From: Thiomicrospira aerophila AL3
GTDB lineage: Bacteria > Pseudomonadota > Gammaproteobacteria > Thiomicrospirales > Thiomicrospiraceae
Assembly: GCF_000227665.2 (NCBI RefSeq)
Contig: NZ_CP007030.1
Coordinates: forward strand, 1,984,001-2,048,000
Reading direction: 5' to 3'
Length of the DNA stretch: 64,000 bases
Below are positions 5,972-61,500 of the stretch, in pieces. The notes beneath the pieces were generated by a model. It worked only from the letters and a program-made list of their open reading frames with translations, was not told where the DNA came from and ran no database searches. Positions within the stretch are counted from its first letter, which is position 1. Every line of letters begins with the position of its first letter. The position numbers and the translations under genes are program-made.

Positions 5972-6036
5972 TTGCAAAAATAAGCAAATCATGCTATGTT
6001 TAATGAATTAAGTTACTATTTATGGAGGTTGTAGAG

Positions 6037-6894
6037 ATGGCAAGTACAGCACTGACAATTCAACAACTTAGTCCAGGCCAAAACCTGGAATCCTATATCA
6101 AAACCGTTAAAACCTTACCTTTATTGAGTGCTCAGGAAGAAAAGGCCTTAGCTGAAAAACTCTATTACCATAAAGACCTTGAAGCTGCACGTCAGCTTAT
6201 TCTGGCGTCATTACGCTTTGTGGTACCCATTGCTCGCAGTTATCAGGGTTATGGTCTACCCATGAGCGATTTAATTCAGGAAGGTAATATCGGATTAATG
6301 AAAGCGGTTAAGCGCTTTAACCCTGAAGAAAATGTCCGCCTCATGACCTTTGCGGTGCATTGGATAAAAGCTGAAATTAATGAATTTGTGATTAAAAACT
6401 GGCGCATTGTTAAAACCGCCACAACAAAAGCCCAGCGTAAACTGTTCTTCAAACTACGTGGCGCTAAGACTGCTCTCACCTGGTTTAGTGATAAAGAAGC
6501 GGATGAAGTGGCTGAGCAACTTGGGGTAACCCGTGCTGATGTACTTGAAATGGATAGTCGTTTATACGGTAAGGATATGCAAGTCGATATGAGCCAAGAC
6601 GAGGAGGAAGCCGAAGGCTATCTTGCTCCAGTGCTTATCAGCCAAGCACCGACACCGGAAGAATCGCTTATTCAAGAAAATGAAGAGCAATACCAGCATC
6701 TCGCTATGCAACAGGCTTTGGCCGTGCTAGATGAACGCAGCCGTGACATCATTCAAACGCGCTGGCTGAATGAGTCTAAACTAGGCCTTAAAGAATTAGC
6801 GGAGAAATACCAGGTTTCGATGGAACGCATCCGTCAAATTGAAGTGCAGGCCATGAAAAAAATGAAACAAGCTATTACCTCTATCCCGGCTTAA
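6037..6894 (+). CDS. rpoH: RpoH, heat-shock sigma factor sigma-32
   Basis: RpoH directs RNA polymerase to heat-shock promoters. Region 2 is clear: LILASLRFVVPIARSYQGYGLPMSDLIQEGNIGLMKAVKRF (given here only as its position, about residues 48-88), followed by the RpoH box region around AQRKLFFKLR. Region 4 ends with ELAEKYQVSMERIRQIE. I use the ATG at 6037, 8 nt after GGAGG at 6024-6028; the ATG at 6022 would lie on top of the ribosome site. A hairpin terminator follows. The 285-residue length is normal. Confidence 0.95.
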   Translation: MASTALTIQQLSPGQNLESYIKTVKTLPLLSAQEEKALAEKLYYHKDLEAARQLILASLRFVVPIARSYQGYGLPMSDLIQEGNIGLMKAVKRFNPEENVRLMTFAVHWIKAEINEFVIKNWRIVKTATTKAQRKLFFKLRGAKTALTWFSDKEADEVAEQLGVTRADVLEMDSRLYGKDMQVDMSQDEEEAEGYLAPVLISQAPTPEESLIQENEEQYQHLAMQQALAVLDERSRDIIQTRWLNESKLGLKELAEKYQVSMERIRQIEVQAMKKMKQAITSIPA

Positions 6895-6927: not shown

Positions 6928-6957
6928 CAAAAAACCAGCTTTACGCTGGTTTTTTTA
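6928..6957. terminator. Bidirectional intrinsic terminator between rpoH and the iota-CA gene
   Basis: The inverted repeat AAAAAACCAGC - TTTAC - GCTGGTTTTTT has an 8-11 bp stem flanked by A and T runs on both sides. It can serve rpoH on the plus strand and the end of the CO2-concentrating island on the minus strand. Confidence 0.85.
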
Positions 6958-7497
6958 ATTGGGCATAACTGATGAATGATGATGCAATATTTTCCAACGA
7001 CCCGCATGAAACGCATACACAAACGTATAACGCGCTTTCACCACCTTGCGCTTTATGCTATCGCCGCCTACCACAAACTCATAAACACCCGCATCAGTTA
7101 GCTTATTACAACCTTTACGAACTATACGCTGCAATACCTTCGCTTGAGGCTGTTTTAATAAAAAGTGCTTAAAGTAGGCTTCAATCTCGCTCAAACCAGA
7201 GCGAGGCAAATTTGAGACAGTCGGCAATAACACCGCATCTTCAGAGTAAAGCGATGCAACATAACGCGCATCTCCTGAAGCTAAGGCCTTATTCCAAACA
7301 GTAAATAACTCTTCTGCTAAAGCTTCATCTACTGGCGCACAATAACTAACTTCTTGACCAACTGGCGGTGTATCAAACGGTTGCTGGACACTGGGCAAGC
7401 GTGGGCGGGTTACATGGCGCAACGAATTATCCAAGCTCACACTCGAATGGCGCATATACTCAATGCCTGTCGTACCTGTTATGCGGTTATTTGCCAT
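6955..7497 (-). CDS. Iota-class carbonic anhydrase-like protein (copy 1) with CsoS2-like N-terminal tag
   Basis: This is a 180-residue SnoaL/NTF2-fold protein of the group often annotated SgcJ/EcaC or CaMKII-association domain, which includes the iota carbonic anhydrases. Family marks visible are VWNKALASGD, SEDAVLLPTVSN, CNKLTDAGVYEF, ARYTFVY and a C-terminal HHHSSVMP; HHHSS is the signature of the iota enzymes. It would interconvert CO2 and bicarbonate. There is no signal peptide, so it is cytosolic. Residues 6-27 instead carry ITGTTG...VSLDNSLR, resembling the CsoS2 C-terminal peptide. It lies 26 nt after csoS1D and has a paralogue at 8887-9435. The class assignment is from motifs; activity is inferred. 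Confidence 0.8.
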   Translation of the reverse strand: MANNRITGTTGIEYMRHSSVSLDNSLRHVTRPRLPSVQQPFDTPPVGQEVSYCAPVDEALAEELFTVWNKALASGDARYVASLYSEDAVLLPTVSNLPRSGLSEIEAYFKHFLLKQPQAKVLQRIVRKGCNKLTDAGVYEFVVGGDSIKRKVVKARYTFVYAFHAGRWKILHHHSSVMPN

Positions 7498-7523
7498 TTT
7501 AAACGCTTTCCTTTACCTGCGTA

Positions 7524-8150
7524 CTACACACGTACATCTTGACCGGTTAGATTTTGAATCGCTTTAGTCGCCGCCTCAGCTGCGACATTAATGTCGGCTT
7601 CACGTCCTGCCATAATTAATCGACCAAACGCACCCACCGCACGCGCTTCAATAAGGGTAATGTTAGATGCTTTCTCAGCCTCATTGGCCGCATAAACAAT
7701 ATAACCCGCCGGCTCGGTCTCCAAAATATACATACTTTGACCTGGTAGAATCATGGAGCCACGTCGATTATCACGGTTAATCAGTACTGCATGATCAGGT
7801 GTGATTGCGCGAATGATTTCGTTCCACATAATATGGCACTTCTGTCGCGAAGATTCATCGGTCTGCAAATAATCCAACACCTTTTGCCCAGACTCCAATA
7901 CATCACTCTGGTCGCGATGATGCAGGAACATCGAACCATAGGAACGTTCGACTATCTGTTGCCCCAAATGCACATTAGAACCTTTTAGTGCAATATCAGT
8001 CAGACGATGCACTGCCATACCTGGTGCCACTTCCATCCATAAACACGCATCACCCGGCACAGGTAAAAAACCCTGTGATGCTGTACCCATATAGGAGGCA
8101 ATTTGCGGTTGCAATGAATTGATAAAAATATAGGTTCTAAGCTTAATCAT
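7524..8150 (-). CDS. csoS1D: CsoS1D, tandem BMC-domain (BMC-T) carboxysome shell protein
   Basis: This 208-residue shell protein consists of two fused BMC domains, forming gated trimeric pseudohexamers in alpha-carboxysome shells. The second half ends with a typical BMC core ([18 protein letters not shown], then [15 protein letters not shown]). The N-terminal half includes [22 protein letters not shown], a CsoS1D hallmark. It lies in the satellite part of the island, downstream of ham1 and upstream of an iota-CA gene, 15 nt from ham1. The large central pore probably passes metabolites such as RuBP. Confidence 0.9.
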
Positions 8151-8165
8151 AATAAAGGCGCCTTG

Positions 8166-8882
8166 TTATCGCCTTGACTTAATAATCTGTGGCACGAGGC
8201 TTCTAAACGCCTCGAGACGATTACTTAAGGTTTGCTTTTGTTCAAAGTTTAATTGTGCTGCTGTGACACCAAATTCTGGCACATAAAATAGTGCATCGTA
8301 ACCATAACCCCCCTGGCCCTCCATGCGGTCATGTAAATAGCCCGCCCATTCACGTGTTACGATTACAGGCAAGGGGTCGGTTGCATGACGCATAAACACC
8401 ACCGTTGAGATATAACTTGCTCGGCGTTGTTCGCCCTTTAGCTCGCTCGCCAACACAAGTAGCTTTTCACAGTTCTGTCGCTCTGTTGCATTTGTACCAG
8501 CAAAGCGTGCTGAATAAAGACCCGGCATGCCGCTTAGTTCTGGCACAAATAAACCAGAATCATCGCCAACAGCTGGCAACCCAGTTTGTTCACAAGCATA
8601 ACGTGCTTTTAAAATCGCATTTTCTAGTAAGGTCCCGCCGGTTTCCTCAATAGATAAAATATTAAAGTCTGCTTGAATCAGCCACTCCACCTCATCAAAA
8701 AAAGGCATCACTTCTGCGGCTTTATTCGCATTACCCGTTGCCAACACCACACGCGGTTTATCTACTGTCACAGTTGGACAGCTTGGTGTCGTAAGATTTT
8801 TTTTACGCGCAACCGGCTTGTTGCGGCTATAAGCAACGGGCTTAACGGCTGTTTTCGTTGACGCTATTCTAGTACGCGGCAC
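8166..8882 (-). CDS. Ham1/RdgB-family nucleoside triphosphate pyrophosphatase with basic N-terminal extension
   Basis: Ham1/RdgB enzymes hydrolyse non-canonical purine NTPs such as XTP and ITP. The core starts near residue 43 with VVLATGNANKAAE and contains TGGTLLENAILKA, VGDDSGLFV, LPGLYSARFAG and the C-terminal GYGYDALF. Before the core there is a Lys/Arg/Thr-rich extension of about 42 residues that is not part of RdgB. Ham1 homologues are known companions of alpha-carboxysome loci, with unclear role. The gene is tightly packed between iota-CA copy 2 (4 nt) and csoS1D (15 nt). Confidence 0.88.
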   Translation of the reverse strand: MPRTRIASTKTAVKPVAYSRNKPVARKKNLTTPSCPTVTVDKPRVVLATGNANKAAEVMPFFDEVEWLIQADFNILSIEETGGTLLENAILKARYACEQTGLPAVGDDSGLFVPELSGMPGLYSARFAGTNATERQNCEKLLVLASELKGEQRRASYISTVVFMRHATDPLPVIVTREWAGYLHDRMEGQGGYGYDALFYVPEFGVTAAQLNFEQKQTLSNRLEAFRSLVPQIIKSRR

Positions 8883-8886
8883 AAGT

Positions 8887-9435
8887 TTACTCTGGCATCA
8901 TTGATGAGTGGTGATGAATAATTTTCCATCCGCCATCTCTATGCTCATAAACGAAGGTATAACGGGCATTAACCTCTTGTGCCTGACCATTTGACGTCAG
9001 TTTAAATACATACACACCAGCATCCGTTAATTTATTACAACCCTTCTTAACATTGCGCTGCTTAATGATGCCAAACGGTTGCTTTTCAAGAAAGTGATTA
9101 AAATAATCAATAATCTCATTACGAGATGTGCGCGGAACATTTGATACAGTTGGCAACAAAATCGCATCATCTGCATACAGATCGGCCACTTTGGCTGCTT
9201 GACCTGTTTGCAACGCGTTATTCCACTTATCAAATAGAGCAGCGGCTAATTTTTCATCAGCTGGCGCACAATAACAGCTCTCAGCAGAAACGGGCGTATC
9301 AATTGGACGTCGTGATACACCTGAGCCAGTAATAGCTTGATAAGGTGTGCGTAACGAATTACTCAAACTGACACCGATTGCTTGCGAATGATCAATACCT
9401 GATGTACCGGTAATTTGAAATGAACTTGATTTCAT
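8887..9435 (-). CDS. Iota-class carbonic anhydrase-like protein (copy 2) with CsoS2-like N-terminal tag
   Basis: This 182-residue paralogue of the protein at 6955-7497 shares CNKLTDAGVY, DDAILLPTVSN, ARYTFVYE and the signature HHHSSMMP. The start has no signal peptide; residues 8-29 carry ITGTSG...VSLSNSLR, again close to the CsoS2 C-terminal ITGSSG...VTVSGGAR. The catalytic domain begins around YCAPADEKLAAALF. It precedes ham1 by 4 nt and follows the LysR-type regulator gene by 59 nt. As with copy 1, carbonic anhydrase activity is inferred from family motifs and the setting inside a CO2-concentrating island. Confidence 0.8.
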   Translation of the reverse strand: MKSSSFQITGTSGIDHSQAIGVSLSNSLRTPYQAITGSGVSRRPIDTPVSAESCYCAPADEKLAAALFDKWNNALQTGQAAKVADLYADDAILLPTVSNVPRTSRNEIIDYFNHFLEKQPFGIIKQRNVKKGCNKLTDAGVYVFKLTSNGQAQEVNARYTFVYEHRDGGWKIIHHHSSMMPE

Positions 9436-9494
9436 TTAATTTAATTCCAATAAAAACACCCAAAACAGGGCGCAAGTTTAACAAAATTTGGTCC

Positions 9495-10493
9495 TTACTG
9501 CTTGATACTTGTTGTGCTTTCTGTGGCATCAACACTGGTTTGGAAATATTCCGCGCCTTTTTCTAACAAAAAATCTAAAAATTTACTGGCAAGGATAGAC
9601 ATAGATTTCCCACTCGGATAAACGATATTGAGTTCTTTTTCTAGTGGAAAACCTTGCACATCTAATACCGCAAGGGGTCCTTCGACCCCCTCAAGATAGA
9701 GTGAATGTTTTGGTACAACAGAAATACCCAAACCACCAAACACAGCATGCTTGATGGTTTCAGTACTTTCCAATGTGAGTCGCTCATTAATCCGTAAGTG
9801 CTGTTCATTAAATCGTTCTTCTACCGCTGAACGAATACCCGACCCAAATTCACGCATCAAGATCGGCTCTTCCGCAATCCTTGCCAACGAAATATTAGTC
9901 TGACCCACCAGAGGATGATCACGGTGCGCGATAAACACCAGTGGATTAGGGGCGAAAGGGATTACGACTGCATCTAATGAACTGGGAGGCTTTTGACCCA
10001 TGATATACATATCATCCAGATTATCTGCAATACGGTTTAATATCGTCTCCCGGTTGCACACGGTAAAACTTAAATCGATATTTGGGTAAACCTTAGAAAA
10101 CTCTCCCAAGGCTAGCGGCAAAAAATATTTCGCAGTGGTCACTACCGCAATACGTAAACGCCCTTTACGCATGCCTTTAAAATCATGAAGGCGCATTTCT
10201 AAATTAGCCAACACGTCCATGACTTCACGACACGCAATAGCCACTTCTTCACCCACTTCTGTTAAGAAGATATTACGACCAAGTTGTTCATACAAAGGCG
10301 TATCAATCGAGTCCTGAAAACTCTTCACCTGAGCAGATACCGTCGGCTGGGTTAAATGAAGTTCCTCTGCCGCACGGGTAAAGCTAGCCAGACGCGCCAC
10401 AGCTTCAAAAACCTGAATTTGACGCAAGGTTAAATGACGAATCAAATAATGATGCGTAATTGTCGGGTTGTCCATGTGGCTACTGGCATTCAT
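9495..10493 (-). CDS. cbbR: LysR-type regulator, CbbR-like
   Basis: This 332-residue LysR-type regulator has an N-terminal winged helix-turn-helix (RQIQVFEAVARLASFTRAAEELHLTQPTVSAQVK, about residues 23-56) and a periplasmic-binding-like effector domain. The sequence style (HLTLRQIQVFEAV, KYFLPLALGEF) matches CbbR/CcmR proteins that control RuBisCO and carbon-uptake genes. It sits between sbtB and the iota-CA gene. The first ATG gives MNASSHMDN; the internal Met at residue 7 is an alternative start. The CbbR role is inferred from similarity and context. Confidence 0.85.
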   Translation of the reverse strand: MNASSHMDNPTITHHYLIRHLTLRQIQVFEAVARLASFTRAAEELHLTQPTVSAQVKSFQDSIDTPLYEQLGRNIFLTEVGEEVAIACREVMDVLANLEMRLHDFKGMRKGRLRIAVVTTAKYFLPLALGEFSKVYPNIDLSFTVCNRETILNRIADNLDDMYIMGQKPPSSLDAVVIPFAPNPLVFIAHRDHPLVGQTNISLARIAEEPILMREFGSGIRSAVEERFNEQHLRINERLTLESTETIKHAVFGGLGISVVPKHSLYLEGVEGPLAVLDVQGFPLEKELNIVYPSGKSMSILASKFLDFLLEKGAEYFQTSVDATESTTSIKQ

Positions 10494-14339: not shown

Positions 14340-14648
14340 TTACAGACGTGCTGCTGGGTTAAGACCCGCAACTAGAACTGGCTCAACTTCTTTGTGAGGA
14401 CGCGCAATAATGTGAGCAGCAACTAAGCCATCACCTACACGCTCACAAGCATCAGCACCAGCACGAACTGCTGCGTTAACCGCACCTGTTTCACCACGTA
14501 CCATAACAGTTACGTAGCCGCCACCAACGAATTCACGGGTGATTAGACGTACTTCTGCTGCTTTAGTCATCGCGTCAGCTGCTTCGATAGCAGGCACAAG
14601 ACCGCGAGTTTCGATCATACCTAAGGCAATACCGTATTCATTGCTCAT
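14340..14648 (-). CDS. csoS1: CsoS1, hexameric BMC-H carboxysome shell protein (second copy)
   Basis: This 102-residue BMC protein forms the hexameric tiles of the shell facets. The core MIETRGLVPAIEAADAMTKAA and AVRAGADACERVGDGLVAAHIIARPH are nearly identical to its neighbour at 14724-15023; the tails differ (VLVAGLNPAARL here). The GGAG ribosome site is spaced 9 nt. A 14-nt element shared with the other csoS1 lies 39 nt upstream of the start. The letter (A, B or C) cannot be set from sequence alone. Confidence 0.96.
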   Translation of the reverse strand: MSNEYGIALGMIETRGLVPAIEAADAMTKAAEVRLITREFVGGGYVTVMVRGETGAVNAAVRAGADACERVGDGLVAAHIIARPHKEVEPVLVAGLNPAARL

Positions 14649-14686
14649 TCTTTAAAACTCCATTCTGATTTTAATCACTGTTAATG

Positions 14687-14700
14687 TTTGAGTTCGTAAC
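14687..14700 (+). repeat. TTTGAGTTCGTAAC element upstream of second csoS1
   Basis: This 14-nt word is identical to one at 15063-15076, and its 12-nt reverse complement is in the cbbL leader (20448-20459). In the transcript sense, CTGTTA and TAACAG can pair around it to leave CGAACTCAAACAT in a loop. Function is unknown; a leader structure or processing site is possible. Confidence 0.6.
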
Positions 14701-14723
14701 AGGGTTAAATTCAATCTATTAAA

Positions 14724-15023
14724 TTAAGCTTGTGGAAGAGTTGAAGTTAATACAGGCTCAACTTCTTTATGTGGACGAGCAATAATGTGAGCTGCTACTA
14801 AACCATCACCTACACGCTCACATGCGTCAGCACCAGCACGAACTGCAGCGTTAACGGCACCAGTTTCACCACGAACCATAACGGTTACATAACCACCACC
14901 AACAAAATCACGAGATACTAAACGTACTTCTGCTGCCTTAGTCATTGCATCAGCTGCTTCGATAGCAGGAACAAGACCACGAGTTTCGATCATACCTAGA
15001 GCGATACCATATTCAGTTGACAT
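14724..15023 (-). CDS. csoS1: CsoS1, hexameric BMC-H carboxysome shell protein (first copy)
   Basis: This 99-residue BMC-H shell protein is first of two tandem copies; proteobacterial loci often have three. It differs from the second copy mainly at a few positions (VSRDFVGGG) and in its tail (VLTSTLPQA). It has a strong AGGAGAAAG ribosome site and a leader with a potential stem, AACAGTTA with TAATTGTT, holding the shared element in its loop. Hexamers of CsoS1 bind CsoS2 repeats and pass small anions through the central pore. Confidence 0.96.
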   Translation of the reverse strand: MSTEYGIALGMIETRGLVPAIEAADAMTKAAEVRLVSRDFVGGGYVTVMVRGETGAVNAAVRAGADACERVGDGLVAAHIIARPHKEVEPVLTSTLPQA

Positions 15024-15143: not shown

Positions 15144-15416
15144 TTAATCCTTATCAACGTCCAGTGACCAATTATCAATAATGCCACTGATCGTTAAATC
15201 TGTTAAATAACGGTCATCACCCGATGCCGTTCTGGCGGCTGAATTTGCTATGGTAAAAACCCACTCCCCAACCTTACAACCGATTGGGTCCAGCGCAGCC
15301 GCAGTGCCTCCTGAGACACTTTTTAATACTTTTACCGGTAAATGACCTAGGTCATCCAATCGACTGGTAAGTATGAGCTGATGTGTAACTTGATGGATTT
15401 CCATCAACCTTCCCAT
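15144..15416 (-). CDS. csoS4B: CsoS4B, pentameric carboxysome vertex protein
   Basis: This 90-residue BMV (EutN/CcmL-type) protein caps the vertices of the icosahedral shell. The beta-barrel start MEIHQVTHQLILTSRLDDLGH and the motif AALDPIGCKVGEWVFTIANSAAR are diagnostic. The C-terminus TISGIIDNWSLD matches CsoS4 proteins. It overlaps csoS4A by 13 nt, so the two are translationally coupled. It is more diverged than CsoS4A, as is usual for the B form. Confidence 0.93.
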   Translation of the reverse strand: MGRLMEIHQVTHQLILTSRLDDLGHLPVKVLKSVSGGTAAALDPIGCKVGEWVFTIANSAARTASGDDRYLTDLTISGIIDNWSLDVDKD

Positions 15417-15652
15417 TTATCAATAATACCAACAATAGTTAGATCACTCGGGTAAGCCTTAGTGCCTGTTGCATCACGCGCTGCCGAACTACCTACACAA
15501 AGCACCCAATCACCAGGCTTACAACCAACAGCATCAACCGCTACCATTGGCGACGCACCTGGCTTTTCCCTTACTAAAAGCAAAGGCTTATGATCCATGG
15601 TCGCTATACGATTGGTTGACACTATGGCTTTTTCAACTTGATATATCTTCAT
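15404..15652 (-). CDS. csoS4A: CsoS4A, pentameric carboxysome vertex protein
   Basis: This 82-residue vertex pentamer protein has the typical MKIYQVEKAIVSTNRIATMDHK start, the AVDAVGCKPGDWVLCVGSSAAR core and TIVGIIDKWEG at the end. Its ATG overlaps the stop of the CsoSCA-like gene (TGATGA) and its 3' end overlaps csoS4B. The order csoS2 - csoSCA position - csoS4A - csoS4B is the standard one for alpha-carboxysome operons. Confidence 0.95.
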   Translation of the reverse strand: MKIYQVEKAIVSTNRIATMDHKPLLLVREKPGASPMVAVDAVGCKPGDWVLCVGSSAARDATGTKAYPSDLTIVGIIDKWEG

Positions 15653-16422
15653 CAGCCACTTTTCCCAACCTTAGGCGACAGTGTTATAACTGTCATAAAC
15701 AAAATAACGCTTAGTAACAACACATCACTAGACTTAAGCTGAAGATTTGACCTATACAACATCTCGTTCAAATAAAGACCAATCAATCTTGAACTCAAAC
15801 TAACATCCAATGTCTCAGCTAAACTAGCGATGGTATTCAAATTCAAATTCAGTTGGCATCCAGCTGAATTAAGCCGCAGCGTAGAGTATTCAAGATTATT
15901 AGGCACCACCAAAGTTATTTGGTTACCATCACTCGGATTCATGAATTCACTCACTGCTCGCTTTAAACCATTCAGTTTACGCGAATCAATACCGCTTCGC
16001 TCATCCACAATATTAAATGAAAACTCAGCGGTGGATACGGTGTCATGCTTTATTGAAACGGCTAAAAGTCTTCGGATTAAAAAGTAATAATAAACATCCC
16101 ACTGGGTTTTGGTTTTGAGCGCTAAGCCGCTTAACCAGTTCGTATCAGGATGATGACTAAACTCTTTTAGTAATCTACTCTTAACAATTTCAATAAAACA
16201 CGGATCTAACTTAGATAAAAACAACTCATCCACAAACATTTCGAGTTGAAAAATATCCTTCTCCAATAAACTTGGAGATAACGCTGGAAGACAAATGAAT
16301 GACTTAAGGTTTGCATCCAGATGTTTTCCAGTGTTGTTTAAGCGACTTTGACTATATTGCTTAGCAATATAGTGCTTTGTTATCACCCGCCCGTTTGGGG
16401 CTCTAATAACGCCACTTTGCAT
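15652..16422 (-). CDS. CsoSCA-derived protein lacking the carbonic anhydrase site (probable remnant)
   Basis: This 256-residue protein fills the slot of the carboxysomal carbonic anhydrase CsoSCA (csoS3), which is normally about 500 residues. Compared with CsoSCA from memory, PDTNWLSGLALKTK recalls the end of the N-terminal domain (NWISGHNLKG), and LKRAVSEF...ITLVVPNNLEYSTLRLNSAG recalls the later catalytic-domain part. The C-x-D segment is absent, and where the zinc His and second Cys should lie there are ERSGID and FMNPSD. The C-terminus is a hydrophobic stretch (SSDVLLLSVILFMTVITL) instead of the C-terminal domain. It is 3 nt from csoS2 and overlaps csoS4A, so the frame is maintained. Structural role or decay are both possible. 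Confidence 0.68.
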   Translation of the reverse strand: MQSGVIRAPNGRVITKHYIAKQYSQSRLNNTGKHLDANLKSFICLPALSPSLLEKDIFQLEMFVDELFLSKLDPCFIEIVKSRLLKEFSHHPDTNWLSGLALKTKTQWDVYYYFLIRRLLAVSIKHDTVSTAEFSFNIVDERSGIDSRKLNGLKRAVSEFMNPSDGNQITLVVPNNLEYSTLRLNSAGCQLNLNLNTIASLAETLDVSLSSRLIGLYLNEMLYRSNLQLKSSDVLLLSVILFMTVITLSPKVGKSG

Positions 16423-16425
16423 AAT

Positions 16426-18594
16426 CTAGGCTCTTGCACCACCTGAAACGGTTACACTAGCACCTTGTTTAGTATTACCTGATGAACCCGTAATAGGACT
16501 CAATTCAGCTACTTTAGGATTTGTTTCTGGTCTAAAGTCTCTTGCTAGATTCAAGGGCTTTGATGCATTCCCTTTCATGCTAACATTCCGACCTTTTGCC
16601 CAACGGCCTTCAGTGCCTGTCACACTACCTGCGCGTCCCCATGAATCTCCAGTAATAGAAAATCCACGATCTGCGCCATCGCCTGTAACTTTTGAAGATA
16701 AATCTTCCGCAACATCATCACTTGGCACGGCTACAGATGGTGATTGCATTGGCATAGCCATCATCATCGGTTGCGAAATAGCATGCATGCTTGCCGGATT
16801 CATCAAGACTGGAAAGTCTGATTCACCTGGCACTGATGCAACACTGTTTTGACACATTGCTGAAGTTTGATCAATACCCTGATAAGGCGTACCACTGACA
16901 CTACTGCAAACTCCCTGCTGAGCACCCGTTAGACCCATTGGGCCTGGTTGAGTACCAGTAGTCGGTTTTGCAGCAAAGCCGGGACGATTCATATAATCTG
17001 GCTTTACTCTTTCAATAGGTAAATCGCATTCTTCAACTGCATCAAGGCTTTGATAACTTGATCCTGTTACACTTTTGCAACGGCCCGCCCCAGCACCAGT
17101 GATTTTACCGCCTAAACCGGCACGATCACCCGTGATTTTATGCCCTGCAAATGTTTTTGACTCTGCCACTTTTTTAGCAGCTGGCTGTAATGTATCACCA
17201 CAGCGAGCACTGCGTGCTTCACGTGATTGATATTCATTGCCAGATACTGTCTTACAAAAACCAGCTTCATCGCCTGTAACAGGCTTATAAAAATTTACGT
17301 TAGTACCCGAAACACGGTTTCCAGCTGAAGTTTCTGAAACATCAACTTTTGTTGGCACTGACATTATTCCAGGCCTAGCCTGACGGGACGGCTCTTTAGC
17401 AAGCTTTGCCACATGTGACAAATACTGAGTGCCCGTAATAGCGCGCTCAGATCCTGCCTCTAATCCTGTCATTGCTTCACGTGGCAGCATAGATGGGCCA
17501 GAAATAATCTGGTTCTTTGCTGTACGTGATTGACTTACTTTACTTGGACCAGATTCTGGTTTGCTGCCACAGAACATTTCGCCCTGATCAGCTGGCAAGT
17601 ATTCAGTACCAGTTACACCTCGGCATTGGCCTGGCTCAGTTCCAGTAACTTTCTCAGACAAACCCACTTCAGTACCACTTACGTGACGACCTGCTGCGGT
17701 TTTAGTCATAGCAACTTTACGAGGATTCGCTTCAGGCTTAAAACTACATTTAGCCTGAAATTCGTCAGGACTGGTATATTCAGTACCACTGATGACGCGA
17801 CACGAACCGGCTTCTGATCCTGTCATTTTGTAAGTATCAGATACCATTGTTCCACTCACTGTCTGGTCATAACCGGTCTGAGAAAATCCAACCTTTGCAG
17901 GGTAGGGTTCAGATGCTGCTGGCTTACGTGCGACTTTTCCTGTTGGACGGCATACACCTGATGAGGTTTTGCCTTGCGTACAACGTTGATGTCTAACTTC
18001 ACGAGCAATCTGACGACCATTTGCATCGGGATTCGCCATTTTTGCAATACTTGATACCGAGCTTGAGCTTGAAAGTTTTGCTTTCAATGCGGCTTTACCT
18101 TCAGACTGGGCCTTACGGTAAGTACGTGCAACCAAACGACCTTTAGGCATAACACTACCCATCGGCTTAACACTAGTTGTTTTAGACTTTACTTCCTGAC
18201 GGCTACGTTCAGTAACAGCTGCAACGGGTGCTGCTTGTACTGGCTTAGCTGTCTCAGTGGTAATTGGCTCTACAACTGTTTTTTGTCTTGGTTGACGAGT
18301 CGGCTGCGATTTAGCTTTGTATCCACTGCCTTTGACAAGCTGTTTACGGCGTTCTACTGCTGCTTTACGTCCCTCGTTAACAACAGGGGCGACGGCAGCA
18401 ACAGTATTTCTTGAACGTGCTGGCGCAGCGATTGGCTCGCTACGCACAGGCTCCGAACTCTTGACAGATGCAGAGGTATTCACAATAGGCTGATGAGCTT
18501 TAGGAACAATTGGCGTTCCCTTGCCCTTCGTTTGAGCTTGGCGACGTGCTCTTGCGAGATCGCGACCAGATAGCCCTTGTGTGTTTGAACTCAT
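16426..18594 (-). CDS. csoS2: CsoS2, carboxysome assembly scaffold
   Basis: CsoS2 is the disordered scaffold linking RuBisCO to the shell. The 722-residue protein shows four basic N-repeats (GRDLARARRQAQ near 10, GRKAAVERRKQL near 75, GRLVARTYRKAQ near 152, GRQIAREVRHQR near 193) that bind RuBisCO. About five to six middle repeats follow, with paired (I/V)(T/S)G motifs and Cys residues (233-560). The C-region ends in ITGSSG...VTVSGGAR, the shell-anchoring peptide. A strong AGGAGG site precedes the ATG. Programmed frameshifting is known for CsoS2 of Halothiobacillus; I could not confirm a site here. Confidence 0.95.
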   Translation of the reverse strand: MSSNTQGLSGRDLARARRQAQTKGKGTPIVPKAHQPIVNTSASVKSSEPVRSEPIAAPARSRNTVAAVAPVVNEGRKAAVERRKQLVKGSGYKAKSQPTRQPRQKTVVEPITTETAKPVQAAPVAAVTERSRQEVKSKTTSVKPMGSVMPKGRLVARTYRKAQSEGKAALKAKLSSSSSVSSIAKMANPDANGRQIAREVRHQRCTQGKTSSGVCRPTGKVARKPAASEPYPAKVGFSQTGYDQTVSGTMVSDTYKMTGSEAGSCRVISGTEYTSPDEFQAKCSFKPEANPRKVAMTKTAAGRHVSGTEVGLSEKVTGTEPGQCRGVTGTEYLPADQGEMFCGSKPESGPSKVSQSRTAKNQIISGPSMLPREAMTGLEAGSERAITGTQYLSHVAKLAKEPSRQARPGIMSVPTKVDVSETSAGNRVSGTNVNFYKPVTGDEAGFCKTVSGNEYQSREARSARCGDTLQPAAKKVAESKTFAGHKITGDRAGLGGKITGAGAGRCKSVTGSSYQSLDAVEECDLPIERVKPDYMNRPGFAAKPTTGTQPGPMGLTGAQQGVCSSVSGTPYQGIDQTSAMCQNSVASVPGESDFPVLMNPASMHAISQPMMMAMPMQSPSVAVPSDDVAEDLSSKVTGDGADRGFSITGDSWGRAGSVTGTEGRWAKGRNVSMKGNASKPLNLARDFRPETNPKVAELSPITGSSGNTKQGASVTVSGGARA

Positions 18595-18628: not shown

Positions 18629-18973
18629 TTACAGACCGCGTGGGCGATAAACTACGAATTCATGGCCTTTACACTGGGTGTAATTGTCATAACCAACCAT
18701 ACGGATCAAATGATCAGGATAAGCACGACGACATTCATCAAGCTCAGCTAGAACTTGATCAGGGTTGCGCATACCGAAGAATGGAAGTTTCCACATACCC
18801 CAGTAGTGTGCAGACGCCTTCTCAGGTGCTTCATGCTCAAGAGCAGGTGTCCAACCTTGGTTGATGATGTATACGATTTGATCGTAGATTTCGTCTTGGC
18901 TCAAAGGTGGCAAAAACGAGAAAGTTTCATAGGTGCGCGTAGTGCGGAAATCACCTGAACTCATTACTGACAT
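18629..18973 (-). CDS. cbbS: CbbS, RuBisCO small subunit (form IA)
   Basis: The 114-residue small subunit of form I RuBisCO has [26 protein letters not shown] near the start and [32 protein letters not shown] in the middle (about residues 56-87). There is no transit or carboxysome-specific extension. It follows cbbL by 35 nt with an AAGGAG ribosome site and precedes csoS2 by 34 nt. Together with cbbL it encodes the carboxysomal L8S8 enzyme. Confidence 0.97.
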
Positions 18974-19008
18974 AGAATTCTCCTTAAACTAATTGGGCAA
19001 GTCTGAAA

Positions 19009-20421
19009 TTAAGCGTCTAGCTTATCAACAGTGTCAAATTCAAACTTGATTTCTTTCCAAGTTTCTAGTGCAACGGCTAGTTCTGGGCTATGACGCGCTG
19101 CATCACGAAGAATGTCACCACCTTCACGCTCTAGATCACGACCTTCGTTACGTGCTTTAACACAGGCTTCCAAAGCAACACGGTTAGCTGCTGCACCGGC
19201 TGCGTTACCACCTGGGTGACCTTGCGTACCACCACCGAACTGAAGAACTGAGTCATCACCGAAGATAGTTACCAACGCTGGCATGTGCCATACGTGAATA
19301 CCACCAGAAGCAACAGCCATAACACCTGGCATTGAACCCCAATCCTGGTCGAAGAATACACCACGTGAACGATCTTCTGGAACGAACGCTTCACGTAACT
19401 GATCAACGAAACCTAGTGTAGAAGCACGGTCGCCTTCCAACTTACCAACAACAGTACCGGTATGTAGGTGATCACCACCTGACAAACGTAAACACTTAGC
19501 TAAAACGCGGAAGTGAATACCGTGGTTAGGGTTACGGTCGATTACAGCGTGCATTGCACGGTGGATATGTAACAACATACCGTTCTTGCGACACCAGTTA
19601 GCTAATGACGTGTTAGCAGTGAAACCACCTGTTAGGAAGTCATGCATAACGATACGTACGCCAAGCTCTTTAGCGTATTCAGCACGTTCCATCATGTCTT
19701 CACACGTTGCAGCGGTTACGTTTAGGTAGTGACCTTTAACTTCGCCAGTTTCTGCTTCTGCTTTGTTGATTGCATCAGCAACGAATGAGAAGCGATCTCT
19801 CCAACGCTGGAATGGCTGTGAGTTGATGTTTTCGTCGTCTTTGGTTAAGTCCAAACCACCACGAAGACACTCATATACCGCACGACCGTAGTTCTTAGCT
19901 GACAAACCTAGTTTTGGCTTGATAGTACAGCCCAACATTGGACGCCCATATTTGTTTAACTTGTCACGCTCTACCTGGATACCGCTTGGTGGGCCACCAC
20001 AGGTTTTGATGAAAGCGATTGGGAAACGAATATCTTCTAAACGTAATGAACGAACAGCTTTAAAGCCGAATACGTTACCAACCAATGAGGTCAATACGTT
20101 TACAACAGAACCTTCTTCGAAAAGATCCAATGGGTAAGCGATGAATGCATAGAATGCATCTTTGTTACCAGGAACGTCTTCGATTCTGTAGCAACGGCCT
20201 TTGTAGAATTCCATATCAGTCAAAAGGTCAGTCCAAACTGTTGTCCAAGTACCTGTTGATGATTCTGCTGCTACAGCGGCTGCTGCTTCTTCACGTGGTA
20301 CACCCGCTTGTGGGATAACTTTGAAACACGCCAAAAGGTCAGTGTCAAGCGGAGTGTAATCTGGCGTCCAATAGGTCAGTTTATAATCCTGAACACCAGC
20401 GTTAAATGTTTGATTTGCCAT
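19009..20421 (-). CDS. cbbL: CbbL, RuBisCO large subunit (form IA, carboxysomal)
   Basis: The 470-residue large subunit of ribulose-1,5-bisphosphate carboxylase has the active-site segment [11 protein letters not shown], whose Lys is carbamylated, then [34 protein letters not shown] and loop 6 [11 protein letters not shown]. It fixes CO2 to give two 3-phosphoglycerate inside the carboxysome. It is first gene of the cbb/cso operon. The leader has a GAGGTGA ribosome site and an inverted copy of the csoS1 element at 20448-20459. Confidence 0.98.
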
Positions 20422-45452: not shown

Positions 45453-48134
45453 TTAGGTACTCGGCTGGGCTTGCGTATCCTCATCGATCATAACGAGTTT
45501 ATTACGTCCTAGATTTTTGGCTAGGTATAACGCATTATCAAGATCTCGGTACACATCCTTAAAGGCGCTAATACTATCTGAAGCCCAAACGCCTGCTCCA
45601 AGGGATAAAGATAACCAACCTAACTCAGTTGATTCGTTGGGAATTCTTGCTGTAATAATGGCCAGTCGGAACTTTTCCAGCTGTTCCATAAACACAGTTG
45701 AACTCTGATTTGAAGTCATAATTAAGAACTCTTCACCACCCAACCTAAACACATAATCATTCGCTCGGCCAAAATAGACTTTAGATAGCATTGAGATTTG
45801 CTGAAGCACTTGATCACCCTGCTCATGGCCGTAGGTATCATTTATCAGCTTAAAGTAGTCTAAATCGAACACCGCAAGACATAACGTATGATTTAACCGT
45901 TTGAGTCGTCCCAACTCTTTATCAAAAAGCTGCAATAAATAACGCCGGTTATATAGACCCGTTAATTCATCTTCAATTGACTGAGTTTCTAAACGCTTTT
46001 TATCGGTAATATTGACCCGTGTTGCCAATAGTTTTTCCACTTTACCAAATAGATTGCGTTGCGGACTAAGCGTTATCTCAACCCAATATGACACGCCTTG
46101 TTTAGATTGCCCTTCTATTTCACCTGTCCAACTATCGCCTTTCATCACTTGATTTACAATCATAGCAAGCTCATCTTCAGACATTTTCACGCGCATTAAA
46201 TCTAGAATGGATAACTCTGCAAGTTCTGAAGAAGAGTATCCAGTTAATTTAGTATAACTATCACTTGCCCAGACTATTTTATAGGTGTGCGGATCAATAT
46301 GACTGGCATAGCTCAACTCATTGACCTGTGATAGAAAAACTTTTAACTGTTGCTTTTGCACTCTATAAACAACTATCCAGGCAATCAGCGCGAACGCAAT
46401 GAGCAACCCATAGATAAGCAGCTGAAAAAGTTGTCGATTATCTAACCGAGTCAATAGGGATAAATTAACCCACTTCGCATAAATGGCATTGTGTTCATCA
46501 AGAGTGATGTCATCGAGCGCTTTTTGCATAATGCTAAATAGCAATGGGTTATCTCTTGGCACGCCAATCGCGAGCTCAAAGCGTTGATCCGATTGTCCAA
46601 CAATTTGCATGCCGGTGATGCCTTGCTGCCTCATGATATAGTTGATAACAGCTAAATTGCCAGAATAGACAAAAGCTTTTCCCGACATTACCGCTTGTAA
46701 GCCCTCCAAAACACTATCAACTAAATATAAATTAACCTGTGGATAGTTATTTTGTAGATACTCATGAGACCAATAATCCCTCACCACCGCAACGGTTTTT
46801 CCTTCAAGCTCTTGATAATGATTAATAAAAAAAGTATCTGGATTTCCTGCTAAGACCATCGGGAAAGTCAAATAAGGCTGGGTAAATTTAAGATACTCAA
46901 GACGCTCTGGAGTTGGTGTCGCTCCTGACAAAAGATGAATCTCACCCTGTTGCACTTTACTAAGCGTTTCGGACCAAGTGGTATTTTTTTGAGGCTCAAA
47001 TCTCACACCTAAGCGCTGCTCAAAAAGGCGAAAATAATCAGCCACCATGCCAGCGTACTGACCTTTAGCATCTATAAACTCAAATGGCGCCCAGTTTATG
47101 TCATTACCTATACGGATCACTGGGTTTTGATGCAAAAACGCACGCTCTTCTTCGGTCAAGGAACCTAAGCCAGTAGAATTAAATATAAAAGCTTTTGGAC
47201 TAAATTGATTAAAGAGACTATCAGTAATCAAGCCAATATCTCTTGCCTCCGCAGCCGTCGCTAAGACTCTACTTGCATCAATAGCCCCAATTGGAATGCG
47301 ACCAACTCGCACATACTTTGTCGTCGCCTGAGCCTCGTAAACTAGTGCCTGCTCACTCTTAACCACCGGATAATTTTGCATTATAAAGGCCACGACTTCT
47401 GGCTGATTATCAATTGCATAACGCCAGCCGGCCACTGTAGCACGTCGGAAACGCTCAACGACATCCGGATACCTATCTGCAAACTTTTGTGCCACAATCA
47501 CAATATCTTCCATACTATTGACACCAAAGTCTGCGGGTTTCACTAAGTGATAACTCAGGTTATGTTCCTTTAGTTGATAGGGCTCATTAGTTTCATAGGC
47601 ACCATAAAGATCAATCTTTTTATTAATAAAATCGTTCAAATCACCCGAAGGCGGGATGGTAATAAGTGGAGCGGTCAAATCCTGTTCCGCTCGATTTAGT
47701 AACGCGAGGATTTGCAGATTATTGTAGTGTGAAACTGTTTTGCCACTAAGCTGGCTGAGGTGGGTAATAGGCTCTTTTGATAAAAGTACCATAGGGGAAA
47801 ATTGAAAAGATGTCATAACCGCCGCAATAGGGGCGCCATGGATAAAATCAACCACGGCGCTGGAATAGGCCGTACCAAATGTCGCCCGACCAGACACCAC
47901 TTCATCGACAATATCAAGTCCAGGCCGCCAGTCTTTAATGGTTACGTCCAACCCCTCATCACGATAATAACCTTGCGCAAGGGCGGCATAAAAGCCAGCA
48001 AACTGATACTGATGATGCCAATTAACTTGCACCGAAACAGATTTTATAGGGGCTTGCTCTTCAGCGATTGCAACGACCGCGCCGAAGAGCAGGCCAAGGA
48101 ACACCCATAAATTTGTTAATTTTTTTATATACAT
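45453..48134 (-). CDS. Diguanylate cyclase with two periplasmic binding domains (NMT1-like, SBP3), PAS and GGDEF
   Basis: This about 893-residue membrane sensor starts with a signal segment and an NMT1/ThiY-like domain (VSVQVNWHHQYQFAGFYAA, residues 35-250), then an SBP_bac_3 domain (IRIGNDINWAPFEF; GLQAVMSGKAFVY), a membrane helix near 580, a PAS domain and a GGDEF domain with DELTGLYNRRYLLQLF and FRLGGEEFLIM. The GGEEF site predicts cyclic di-GMP synthesis. The first domain resembles pyrimidine-precursor binding proteins. I prefer the ATG at 48134 to the TTG at 48152. Confidence 0.9.
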   Translation of the reverse strand: MYIKKLTNLWVFLGLLFGAVVAIAEEQAPIKSVSVQVNWHHQYQFAGFYAALAQGYYRDEGLDVTIKDWRPGLDIVDEVVSGRATFGTAYSSAVVDFIHGAPIAAVMTSFQFSPMVLLSKEPITHLSQLSGKTVSHYNNLQILALLNRAEQDLTAPLITIPPSGDLNDFINKKIDLYGAYETNEPYQLKEHNLSYHLVKPADFGVNSMEDIVIVAQKFADRYPDVVERFRRATVAGWRYAIDNQPEVVAFIMQNYPVVKSEQALVYEAQATTKYVRVGRIPIGAIDASRVLATAAEARDIGLITDSLFNQFSPKAFIFNSTGLGSLTEEERAFLHQNPVIRIGNDINWAPFEFIDAKGQYAGMVADYFRLFEQRLGVRFEPQKNTTWSETLSKVQQGEIHLLSGATPTPERLEYLKFTQPYLTFPMVLAGNPDTFFINHYQELEGKTVAVVRDYWSHEYLQNNYPQVNLYLVDSVLEGLQAVMSGKAFVYSGNLAVINYIMRQQGITGMQIVGQSDQRFELAIGVPRDNPLLFSIMQKALDDITLDEHNAIYAKWVNLSLLTRLDNRQLFQLLIYGLLIAFALIAWIVVYRVQKQQLKVFLSQVNELSYASHIDPHTYKIVWASDSYTKLTGYSSSELAELSILDLMRVKMSEDELAMIVNQVMKGDSWTGEIEGQSKQGVSYWVEITLSPQRNLFGKVEKLLATRVNITDKKRLETQSIEDELTGLYNRRYLLQLFDKELGRLKRLNHTLCLAVFDLDYFKLINDTYGHEQGDQVLQQISMLSKVYFGRANDYVFRLGGEEFLIMTSNQSSTVFMEQLEKFRLAIITARIPNESTELGWLSLSLGAGVWASDSISAFKDVYRDLDNALYLAKNLGRNKLVMIDEDTQAQPST

Positions 48135-48206
48135 AGGTTGATTATAGAGCAAAGATGCTTGGCTTTATTATGTATATAAAAAATCGTAACCACAAGTGAA
48201 AAGAAA

Positions 48207-48246
48207 CAAAAAAGTCCGCACTTAATATTATTAATATGCGGACTCC
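48207..48246 (-). terminator. Intrinsic terminator after the orphan secreted protein gene
   Basis: On the minus strand GAGTCCGCA pairs with TGCGGACTT around an A/T-rich 16-nt loop, then TTTTTT. Confidence 0.8.
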
Positions 48247-48286
48247 ATTAATGCCTAAAAAGAACTAAAGGCTGGTTTAGTCAGGA

Positions 48287-48952
48287 TTAGGCTCTGCGGA
48301 ACAAGGCTACCAAATCTTCGCGTAAATCTACACGACCCATTTCTTCAAGCTTCACATCGGTACCCGTTACGGTTACTTTTTGTAGTGCGGCTTGCGAATT
48401 CGGGATATCGAGAGTAATAGCTGCTAACTTGGCACTCGCTAAATAGCCTGCAACCTTAGCATTGTTTTTCAAAATATCCTGTGGCTGTTGCTGCGCCCAA
48501 GTGGTTGCGTGGAACACAATCGTACCTTGGTAGTTGGCATCAGCAAGCGCAACTAGTGTTTGTTCAAGTACTTTAATGTTTTCATCACGCTGGAATTCGC
48601 CACCAAAAGCCAAATAAACCGCTTCTTGCTCCATCATTCGCGCTACAGCAGCTTTAACGTCTTCTTCTGTGGCAACAGATTCATATACAAACCCCGCGTC
48701 ACCCTGAGTGGTTAAATAGCCACCACCAATCCCCCCCACTAGTGTTCCACACACGCGTGAACGGTTACTAATCACACCAAGATGAGTGACATTCATTGCG
48801 CCTTGCAAAGTTTGCCCAATCGTCGCACCCGCCATAATTCGAATGGTTTGAGCTTCTCCAGCCGTCAGTGGTTGTTTAGCTTCTGCATAGGCCGCCATTG
48901 ATCCCATACCCATAAAACCGACAATCATTGCACTTATAATTGATTTGCGCAT
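48287..48952 (-). CDS. Secreted protein of unknown function
   Basis: I do not recognise this 221-residue protein. It has a clear signal peptide ending at about residue 24 (MAAYAEAKQ). The mature part begins with a Gly/Thr-rich stretch (IRIMAGATIGQTLQGAMNVTHLGVISNRSRVCG), has a single Cys, a glycine cluster (VGGIGGGY) and then a mixed alpha/beta region ending KVTVTGTDVKLEEMGRVDLREDLVALFRRA. It stands alone, with its own ribosome site and terminator. The sequence is compatible with a periplasmic fold. Confidence 0.75.
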   Translation of the reverse strand: MRKSIISAMIVGFMGMGSMAAYAEAKQPLTAGEAQTIRIMAGATIGQTLQGAMNVTHLGVISNRSRVCGTLVGGIGGGYLTTQGDAGFVYESVATEEDVKAAVARMMEQEAVYLAFGGEFQRDENIKVLEQTLVALADANYQGTIVFHATTWAQQQPQDILKNNAKVAGYLASAKLAAITLDIPNSQAALQKVTVTGTDVKLEEMGRVDLREDLVALFRRA

Positions 48953-49059
48953 AACTAAACTCCTAGTTCATTAATAAATAATACTCAATTTATATTAGTT
49001 GAAACCAACAAATTAATTGTGTCTAAATCAAGGAAGTTAAAGTTTTTCTTATGCCCGCA

Positions 49060-49968
49060 TCAATAAAGTTTTTGGCCTGGCACATTCTTGTAGCGCTTGT
49101 AGGACCACTGATACTGCGCTGGACACAGGCTCAATGCCTGCTCAACGCCTTGATTAAGAGCGGTCGCTGCGACTAGATCATCGCCATCACTCACCTGCTC
49201 ACTTGCTGGTATAACATGTATACGATAGCCTTCAGCAGCAGGCAAACGCTCCGCAAAGGTATAAAAAACGGGGCACTGGGCTTTTTGCGCCAATTTAGCG
49301 ACCAATAACATCGTATTCGCCGCTTGGTTAAAAAATGGCGCAATCACCCCACCGCTCGCACCCGGATCTTGATCAGGCAAAATACCTACAATCTCCTGCG
49401 CCTTCAATGCCCGGCGCAAGGCTTTAACGCCACTCATATCGGTTGGCACTAAATGGGCGCCGCCACGTTCGCGCACGGAACGCATAAAGGTTTCAATTGA
49501 AGCCATACGCGGCGGACGATACAAGCTCGTAATGCCATAACTAACCGACCAATACCAGCCCATCAATTCCCATGCACCTAAATGCGGCGATAACACTATC
49601 ACGCCACGCTGCTGCGCCAGGCCTGCTTCGAGTAAATCTAAACCCCGCACCTCTTTAACCAAAGGAAGCAGCTTCTCTTGTGGCCATAACCATAATGGGC
49701 CCAACTCCGTCACGGTTTTACCCAACTCGACCAAACTCTGCTTAGCCAATTGCTCGCGCCACGCCTGCTCTTGGTCAGGATAGGCAATCGCCAAATTAAT
49801 CAAGGTAATACGTTTAACCTTATTAGGCACCCGCCATAATAACCAGCCCAGCCCTTGGCCTAGACGACGATTTAAACCTAAAGGTAGTTTAGAAAAAAAC
49901 CAAATTAATCCTTTAAACAATGCACCTGCAATGGGATGTTGATCACTTGACGCCAATGTTTTACTCAT
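49060..49968 (-). CDS. LpxL/HtrB-type lipid A acyltransferase
   Basis: This 302-residue inner-membrane acyltransferase adds a secondary acyl chain to lipid A or a related lipid. The catalytic motif HLGAWE (HX4E) is in VIVLSPHLGAWELMGWY; LLWRVPNKVKRITLINLAIAYP is typical of LpxL/LpxM, and GILPDQDPGASGGVIAPFF is the second conserved block. It overlaps ttcA by 8 nt in a three-gene run with trmA. LpxL versus LpxM is not decided. Confidence 0.9.
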   Translation of the reverse strand: MSKTLASSDQHPIAGALFKGLIWFFSKLPLGLNRRLGQGLGWLLWRVPNKVKRITLINLAIAYPDQEQAWREQLAKQSLVELGKTVTELGPLWLWPQEKLLPLVKEVRGLDLLEAGLAQQRGVIVLSPHLGAWELMGWYWSVSYGITSLYRPPRMASIETFMRSVRERGGAHLVPTDMSGVKALRRALKAQEIVGILPDQDPGASGGVIAPFFNQAANTMLLVAKLAQKAQCPVFYTFAERLPAAEGYRIHVIPASEQVSDGDDLVAATALNQGVEQALSLCPAQYQWSYKRYKNVPGQKLY

Positions 49969-51827: not shown

Positions 51828-51867
51828 TGCTTGTCCTCAAATTAGCTAAAACCACTATTATACCTGC

Positions 51868-55986: not shown

Positions 55987-55999
55987 ACCATTACTACTC

Positions 56000-56413: not shown

Positions 56414-56434
56414 AGGCCTTTTCCTAATGGGAAG

Positions 56435-57514: not shown

Positions 57515-57517
57515 AAT

Positions 57518-61000: not shown

Positions 61001-61041
61001 CGCACCTGTACCCTGCTTGACTTAATACTTAACCCCACCGG

Positions 61042-61497: not shown

Positions 61498-61500
61498 TAA

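Follow-up and report, generated by a model that had tools for sequence, protein, structure and literature searches.

Which carbonic anhydrase (CA) serves the α-carboxysome of a bacterium in whose genome a profile search finds no CsoSCA_C domain, and what would carry it there? The question is raised by a 64,000-nucleotide stretch of the Thiomicrospira aerophila AL3 genome (NZ_CP007030.1, positions 1,984,001 to 2,048,000; hereafter the window, in whose coordinates positions are given), where an α-carboxysome cluster encodes two proteins of the iota class of CAs (iota-CAs), each with an N-terminal extension of roughly 30-45 residues, here called the tag, that carries a (V/I)(T/S)G triplet of the kind found in the carboxysome protein CsoS2. 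We propose that the tag is a shell-anchoring encapsulation signal that works like the CsoS2 triplet motif, a reading to which we assign a probability of about 0.65. The first-pass annotation of the window had described the tag as a copy of the CsoS2 C-terminal shell-binding peptide that sends the enzyme into the carboxysome.

Two iota-type enzymes and their N-terminal arm

The elements on which the argument turns are the following.

8887..9435, minus strand: iota-CA 1 (protein 1), 182 residues, comprising tag, linker and CaMKII_AD/NTF2-like domain (open reading frame (ORF), family scans, AlphaFold2 (AF2) model)
9349..9414, minus strand: tag core of protein 1, residues 8-29, ITGTSG..VSLSNSLR (ORF, AF2 model, alignment)
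9325..9333, minus strand: second (V/I)(T/S)G triplet of the protein 1 tag, residues 35-37, ITG (ORF, alignment)
8896..9255, minus strand: catalytic-type domain of protein 1, residues 61-180, with LLPTVSN and HHHSS motifs (AF2 model, alignment)
6955..7497, minus strand: iota-CA 2 (protein 2), 180 residues, a fast-evolving tagged paralogue (ORF; long branch within the tagged clade)
7417..7482, minus strand: tag core of protein 2, residues 6-27, ITGTTG..VSLDNSLR, second triplet absent (ORF)

Both ORFs lie where the first-pass annotation placed them, but the product of 8887..9435 has 182 residues and not the 180 that it gave. The two proteins, which are 54% identical to each other, belong to the CaMKII_AD/SnoaL-like superfamily: both match PF08332 above its cut-off (E 2e-15 and 8e-22), with TIGR02246 matched as well. 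Sequence searches of the PDB relate protein 1 to 3h51 and, weakly, to the iota-CA 7c5x, and a Foldseek search with its AF2 model ranks 3h51 first (E 1e-17, 57% identity). HHHSS is present in both proteins, and H175, H176, S177 and S178 are invariant in a 39-sequence alignment; a C-terminal His-His-Ser-Ser motif typifies iota-CAs, according to the excerpted text of PMC8132391. T96 and Y111 are likewise invariant among the 39 sequences, and by motif order they would correspond to Thr106/Tyr124 in the active site of all2909. The earlier description of the pair as iota-type proteins without a signal peptide agrees with these family matches and with their place in a carboxysome cluster; no signal peptide is evident by eye in the tagged proteins, and on this ground we rejected a secreted enzyme. 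The bacterial COG4875/CaMKII_AD-type iota-CAs at loci L130-L163 share the domain and, in the aligned members, the HHSS motif, but they lack the tag and most of these 34 proteins start, by eye, with signal-peptide-like segments.

The N-terminus of protein 1 reads MKSSSFQ-ITGTSG-IDHSQAIG-VSLSNSLR and that of protein 2 MANNR-ITGTTG-IEYMRHSS-VSLDNSLR. Across 23 divergent tags the columns G10, S23 and D46 are invariant and I8, T11, I14, R29, T36 and I45 nearly so, the consensus being I-[TS]-G-T-x-[GF]-I ... [VLI]-S-[LVFM]-x3-R ... [VI]-T-[GQ] ... P-I-D-T. The AF2 model of protein 1 is confident over the domain (residues 61-180, with block means of the predicted local distance difference test, pLDDT, of 84-97), and values below 50 at residues 1-17 and 19-41 predict a disordered tag. 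Classical microcompartment encapsulation peptides are short terminal amphipathic helices that send an enzyme into the microcompartment; we considered the tag as one of these and set the idea aside, as no helix is predicted in residues 1-60 of the model.

Despite its predicted disorder, the tag is under purifying selection. Over eight species pairs its rate of nonsynonymous substitution (dN) is 0.019-0.070, with synonymous rates (dS) from 1.3 to saturated. In paralogue 2 the tag dN (0.019-0.039) lies below that of the domain (0.063-0.109), and in protein 1 of three species the two are alike (tag 0.020-0.047, domain 0.046-0.054; tag dS 2.5 or saturated). Since a disordered segment changes so little, a function for the tag is likely.

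Co-occurrence of the tag with carboxysomes

Relatives of the enzymes were sought in a scan of bacterial genomes, of which the best 80 of 407 were kept. The tag is present in all 46 of the best-scoring loci among these 80 (L084-L129) and absent from the remaining 34 (L130-L163); the regular expression overlooked those of L109 and L116, which were identified by eye. A tree built from 87 rows and 129 columns, from which a motif or length filter omitted L149 and L156, places all 53 tagged rows in a single group (support 100/99), and because the tag marks a single clade it probably arose once. A CsoS2 match was found in 43 of the 45 tagged genomes (46 loci, L108 and L117 being in one genome; 20/22 and 23/23 in two successive searches) and in none of the 34 untagged ones (0/28 and 0/6), for which Fisher's test returns P 2.5e-20 on sequences that are not independent: as the tagged proteins form a single clade, 43/45 versus 0/34 does not represent so many independent events. 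By hand count, a shell gene or csoS2 lies in the flank (≤10 kb) of 29/46 tagged loci against 0/34 untagged, and cbbR stands directly upstream on the same strand in 22/46.

The same relation was examined within the family. The iota-CA was found with a two-row profile in 25/62 family genomes, tagged in 23 and untagged in two (G001, G021); it is present in 25/47 CsoS2-positive genomes and in 0/15 CsoS2-negative ones (P 1.4e-4), or 22/40 against 0/10 when only genomes ≥90% complete and ≤5% contaminated are counted. The tagged genomes of this set overlap partially with those of the 80-relative set. More widely, a tag profile run over 369 genomes of the class gave 12 matches in 10 genomes, 12/12 of them on iota-CAs; CsoS2 occurs in 9 of these 10 genomes and in 72/369 overall, so that 63 of the 72 CsoS2-positive genomes have no detected tag. 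In a sample of 398 genomes from the phylum the same profile recovered only the genome of the window itself and two borderline partial matches, which we took as chance.

Likeness to CsoS2 and the rival explanations

The comparison with CsoS2 draws on four further elements of the window.

16426..18594, minus strand: csoS2 (PF12288, E 6e-102)
16429..16494, minus strand: extreme C-terminus of CsoS2, ITGSSGNTKQGASVTVSGGARA, part of fragment F3 resolved in H. neapolitanus (aligned to 8b12 CsoS2B)
16570..16623, minus strand: penultimate repeat of CsoS2, VTGTEGRWAKGRNVSMKG, part of F2, the better profile match to the family tags (alignment, profile comparison)
14340..15023, minus strand: two csoS1 paralogues, with His79 conserved in both (ORF, residue check)

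CsoS2 here ends, as the first-pass annotation said, in ITGSSG, a 7-residue spacer and VTVSGGAR (in full ITGSSG-NTKQGAS-VTVSGGAR-A), and its C-terminal region aligns to the stretch of 8b12 that contains F2 and F3, resolved on the shell. The (V/I)(T/S)G triplets of CsoS2 contact His79 of CsoS1A, according to the excerpted passages of PMC10484944 and PMC11365436. As with F2/F3 (Ni et al., 2023, PMC10484944, in excerpt; 8b12), the triplet of the family tags is followed at a similar distance by [VLI][ST]x...R; both segments are disordered when free, the tag by prediction, and the shell proteins available to it here carry His79. The tag differs in its position, at the N-terminus of an enzyme.

How specific is this likeness? 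A second triplet occurs in 62/71 tags, against a background of 0.04 triplets per 45 residues in the frames of the window. A pattern derived from the tags, in which T as well as S is allowed at one position and I is admitted at a second, since these residues occur in CsoS2, matches 64/71 tags; over 11,682 frames of 91 sequences it matches 51 times in iota-CAs, 27 times in CsoS2 and 2 further times in edge-cut CsoS2 ends, and in nothing else, the 27 CsoS2 matches lying at the extreme C-terminus in 24 cases and in the penultimate repeat in 3. Of 25 CsoS2 frames, 24 are matched at the C-terminal end. The loosest of three patterns made one match in an unrelated frame and the two stricter ones none, and a pattern search of 5,781 frames (the window and L074-L129) gave 13 matches, namely 11 CsoS2 fragments and 2 iota-CAs. 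The register proposed in the first-pass annotation (I-T-G..VS-x-x-x-x-R on ITGSSG..VTxSGGAR) was recovered by an unsupervised profile-profile alignment, with 10/200 permutations as good. In trimmed profile-profile comparisons 0/400 permutations did as well, both for the two CsoS2 repeats together (P 2.8e-5) and for the penultimate repeat (VTGTEGxWAxxRNxS), a result that is too good since the regular expressions used for trimming were chosen after inspection; the untrimmed comparison is the fairer test. With a hidden Markov model (HMM) of both repeats, Thiomicrorhabdus-type tags (L015, L016) reach E 1e-4, with 0/14,000 composition shuffles (pooled over 28 N-termini) as good. The tag of protein 1 is matched or beaten by 75/14,000 shuffles and that of protein 2 by 3,301/14,000; with single-repeat HMMs the figures are 595 and 723 for protein 1 and 1,874 and 5,133 for protein 2. 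For the two proteins of the window alone, the likeness to CsoS2 is weak.

Several observations weigh against a shell-anchoring tag modelled on CsoS2. The triplet's presence in 71/71 tags is circular, because it partly defined them; nine of the 71, protein 2 among them, have only one; and the second follows the first at 27-29 residues in 53 tags and at 16 in nine, compared with about 8 in CsoS2. A triplet precedes the domain in 3/34 untagged proteins as well. The last CsoS2 repeat alone failed to beat permutations even when trimmed. The untrimmed comparisons are borderline or negative, with P no lower than about 0.02: the family tags were equalled by 6/200 permutations and the 11 Thiomicrospira N-termini, set against the last 100 residues of the family's CsoS2, by 10/200; two other family groups were equalled by 21/200 and 43/200, and against other CsoS2 proteins the Thioalkalivibrio-like tags by 43/200 and the family tags by 27/200. 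A wide-set comparison was not significant (P 0.03-0.05, with ≥8/300 permutations scoring higher). A tag HMM run against PDB chains made only chance matches and did not find CsoS2, and in nine genomes of the genus it found the iota-CAs and four weak matches, again without CsoS2. In two of the eight species pairs the tag dN (0.058, 0.070) exceeds that of the domain (0.031, 0.053). The co-occurrence counts lie within one clade. The first-pass annotation had proposed looking for the tag in species without carboxysomes, and two tagged genomes do lack a detected CsoS2 and EutN_CcmL, both being metagenome bins: L091, about 1.1 Mb in size and apparently identical to a bin that is 84% complete, and L128, with a 3.7-kb contig. 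Lastly, bicarbonate dehydration, the direction that a carboxysome needs, was not observed in vitro for the related enzyme group COG4337.

Judged from sequence, the likeness to CsoS2 is real as a short motif, but homology cannot be demonstrated. We have accordingly given up the term 'copy', and with it a recently duplicated CsoS2 C-terminus as the source of the tag: the likeness is too weak, the spacing differs and the penultimate repeat matches better than the last. What stands of that claim is a tag that follows CsoS2 across genomes and shares its triplet, on an enzyme whose carboxysomal location is published.

For that location, Wieschollek and co-workers, in Applied and Environmental Microbiology (AEM) in 2024, reportedly found iota-CA in material enriched for carboxysomes from T. 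pelophila and T. aerophila, and the Thiomicrospira enzyme is said by them to interconvert CO2 and bicarbonate. The presence of iota-CA in Thiomicrospira carboxysomes is stated, with reference to that work, in the excerpts of PMC12628692 and PMC13159521, and similarly in brief in PMC12918739. The enzyme described belongs to the same gene family, in the same kind of locus and with CsoSCA absent; in the excerpts of the citing papers neither an N-terminal tag nor a second paralogue is mentioned, nor that the enzyme can coexist with CsoSCA. No description of the tag was found in the literature searched, in which Wieschollek 2024 is represented through citing papers. The location of the enzyme is already known; the tag is probably a new form of encapsulation signal. 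Two findings are added (both below): the tagged enzyme frequently coexists with CsoSCA, and iota-CA was recruited a second time without a tag.

On the reading that we favour, the N-terminal 30-45 residues would be a disordered tag delivering iota-CA to the inner face of the α-carboxysome shell, where its triplet would most likely bind CsoS1 hexamers around His79 as the CsoS2 triplets do; the NTF2-like domain would then turn bicarbonate into CO2 beside Rubisco. In Thiomicrospira, where CsoSCA would have decayed, the tagged enzyme, here in two copies, would be the sole carboxysomal CA. That the tag causes the localisation, that the shell is its partner and that catalysis runs in this direction are points that we infer.

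The strongest rival, which we nonetheless consider unlikely, keeps the tag as an encapsulation signal and has it bind Rubisco (or CsoS2) in place of the shell, its resemblance to the CsoS2 triplets being convergent or incidental. CsoSCA offers a precedent, being recruited via a Rubisco-binding N-terminal peptide in the account excerpted from PMC12918739, and this peptide is, like the tag, a disordered N-terminal arm of a carboxysomal CA thought to direct encapsulation. It belongs, however, to another enzyme class, shows by eye no sequence likeness to the tag, and has Rubisco as partner where the shell is expected for the tag. How CsoSCA is loaded is itself unsettled, papers differing, in the passages available, between Rubisco binding and nonspecific shell contact. 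A Rubisco partner would also accommodate the conserved Arg and Ser that the tag has besides its triplets, and the weakness of the profile likeness to CsoS2 beyond the family; it leaves unexplained why a triplet so rare elsewhere recurs a second time in most tags, and why, among the frames searched, the tag pattern selects outside the iota-CAs nothing but CsoS2, in its shell-binding part.

Less probable again, and in our judgement improbable, is an extension with a role in the enzyme's oligomerisation, stability or regulation, its link to carboxysomes reflecting one clade in one guild. The single clade formed by the tagged proteins, which deprives the counts of independence, speaks for such a role, but the enzyme still tracks CsoS2 within one family (25/47 versus 0/15). 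Moreover, untagged relatives, including the FKBP-fused ones in carboxysome loci described below, keep the domain without the tag, so that the tag is not needed for folding, and it is modelled as a disordered arm. That the likeness is accidental, and the N-terminus of an ordinary iota-CA a decayed signal peptide with no targeting role, is highly improbable, for although most relatives outside carboxysome bacteria begin (by eye) like signal peptides and the likeness of protein 2 alone to CsoS2 is within chance, the tag persists in divergent species of several families, which largely refutes this reading. Purifying selection on the tag, its neighbours in carboxysome loci and published statements that place the enzyme in Thiomicrospira carboxysomes (PMC12628692, PMC13159521, in excerpt) also speak against it.

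If the tag is indeed a shell anchor, a short portable peptide on an unrelated CA would make the question of CA loading into α-carboxysomes directly testable, would supply a natural peptide for loading cargo into engineered carboxysomes, and predicts a second CA in many carboxysomes that also encode CsoSCA.

CsoSCA, a second recruitment and the rest of the locus

The place that csoSCA would occupy in the cluster is taken by another gene.

15652..16422, minus strand: csoSX, the ORF at the csoSCA place (ORF, family scans)

No Pfam family matches csoSX at E 1, no NCBIfam family does so over its cut-off, and its AlphaFold model (mean pLDDT 39) is too poor to use. The Thiomicrospira gene between csoS2 and csoS4A is described as a likely degraded csoSCA in the excerpted text of PMC9164163. 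Counterparts in three species (L084:3026-3778, L085:2555-3499 and L088:2608-3606) are 50, 22 and 17% identical to the copy in the window and keep an N-terminal motif, R-[AS]-P-[NS]-G-[RK]-[VA]-I-T, that is absent from 25/25 CsoSCA proteins examined; it may represent a surviving function of the remnant.

CsoSCA_C occurs in 37 of the 47 CsoS2-positive genomes of the family. Iota-CA is present in all ten of those without CsoSCA_C, against 15/37 of those with it (P 8e-4); two of the ten (G001, G021) have an untagged FKBP-domain fusion. By hand count CsoSCA lies in the same flank in 17/46 tagged loci, for example in Thioalkalivibrio. From the 15/37 genomes and the 17/46 loci it follows that the tagged iota-CA is often a companion of CsoSCA, and within the family the tagged enzyme stands alone, without CsoSCA, only in the Thiomicrospira group. 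One genome of the genus (G057, L076; 83% complete) has CsoSCA and no iota-CA match, which may reflect the ancestral condition of the genus.

The enzymes of G001 and G021 are encoded in carboxysome loci without a csoSCA match and are fused to FKBP_C (PF00254), the fusion genes being L074:3202-3924 (minus strand) and L075:13877-14569 (plus strand). Because they group with untagged iota-CAs, they represent an independent recruitment; iota-CAs have entered carboxysome loci at least two times, with different N-termini. In L074 the stretch of acRAF-like gene plus csoS1 is duplicated (1213-2292 and 8937-10017, about 7.7 kb apart), the acRAF-like protein being identical in both.

A broader scenario, which could as easily prove wrong as right, would join these observations: a whole class of gammaproteobacterial α-carboxysomes, those of Thioalkalivibrio, Guyparkeria, Thiomicrorhabdus, Methylonatrum and others, would house two unrelated CAs, the zinc enzyme CsoSCA held by Rubisco and the tagged iota-CA attached to the shell by a peptide that mimics the scaffold; being redundant, CsoSCA would have been free to decay in Thiomicrospira, and the FKBP-fused lineage would have converged on the same solution.

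The genome is a single contig of 2.16 Mb, and the cluster runs on the minus strand in the order cbbL, cbbS, csoS2, csoSX, csoS4A, csoS4B, two csoS1, a bacterioferritin-like gene, an acRAF-like gene, SulP- and SbtA-type transporters, a P-II protein, cbbR, iota-CA 1, ham1, csoS1D and iota-CA 2. Ham1 and csoS1D thus sit between the two iota-CA genes, and iota-CA 2 is the final gene of the run, followed by a convergent gene. Ten ORFs of the cluster were scanned against Pfam and NCBIfam families; the remaining gene names follow resemblance and gene order, and the names CsoS1D for the product of 7524..8150 and csoS4B/csoS4A for 15144..15652 are likewise presumed. The remaining features are as follows.

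6929..6954, minus strand: terminator-like hairpin and T run directly 3' of iota-CA 2, facing the convergent gene at 6022-6894 (by eye; missing from the output of a consensus terminator scan)
7524..8150, minus strand: presumed CsoS1D-like shell protein between the iota-CA genes (PF00936; NF053796 below its cut-off)
8166..8882, minus strand: Ham1/RdgB-like NTP pyrophosphatase, its N-terminus bearing a basic extension of about 44 residues (family scans)
9495..10493, minus strand: cbbR-type LysR regulator directly upstream of iota-CA 1 (ORF, neighbour comparison)
15144..15652, minus strand: presumed csoS4B and csoS4A vertex proteins (position and resemblance; homologues in relatives' loci)
18629..20421, minus strand: cbbS and cbbL, carboxysomal Rubisco (resemblance; homologues in relatives' loci)

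The N-terminal extension of the Ham1/RdgB-like protein (about 42-44 residues, conserved motif [VL][AS]YSRN[KR]) recurs in L002, L003 and L084, genomes that also have iota-CA 2, while the remaining Ham1 proteins fetched have shorter or different N-termini; the extension could be another targeting arm. Elsewhere in the window, at 45453-63909 on the minus strand, several large sensor kinases and response regulators, in which kinase and receiver domains are repeated, are clustered, as judged by eye.

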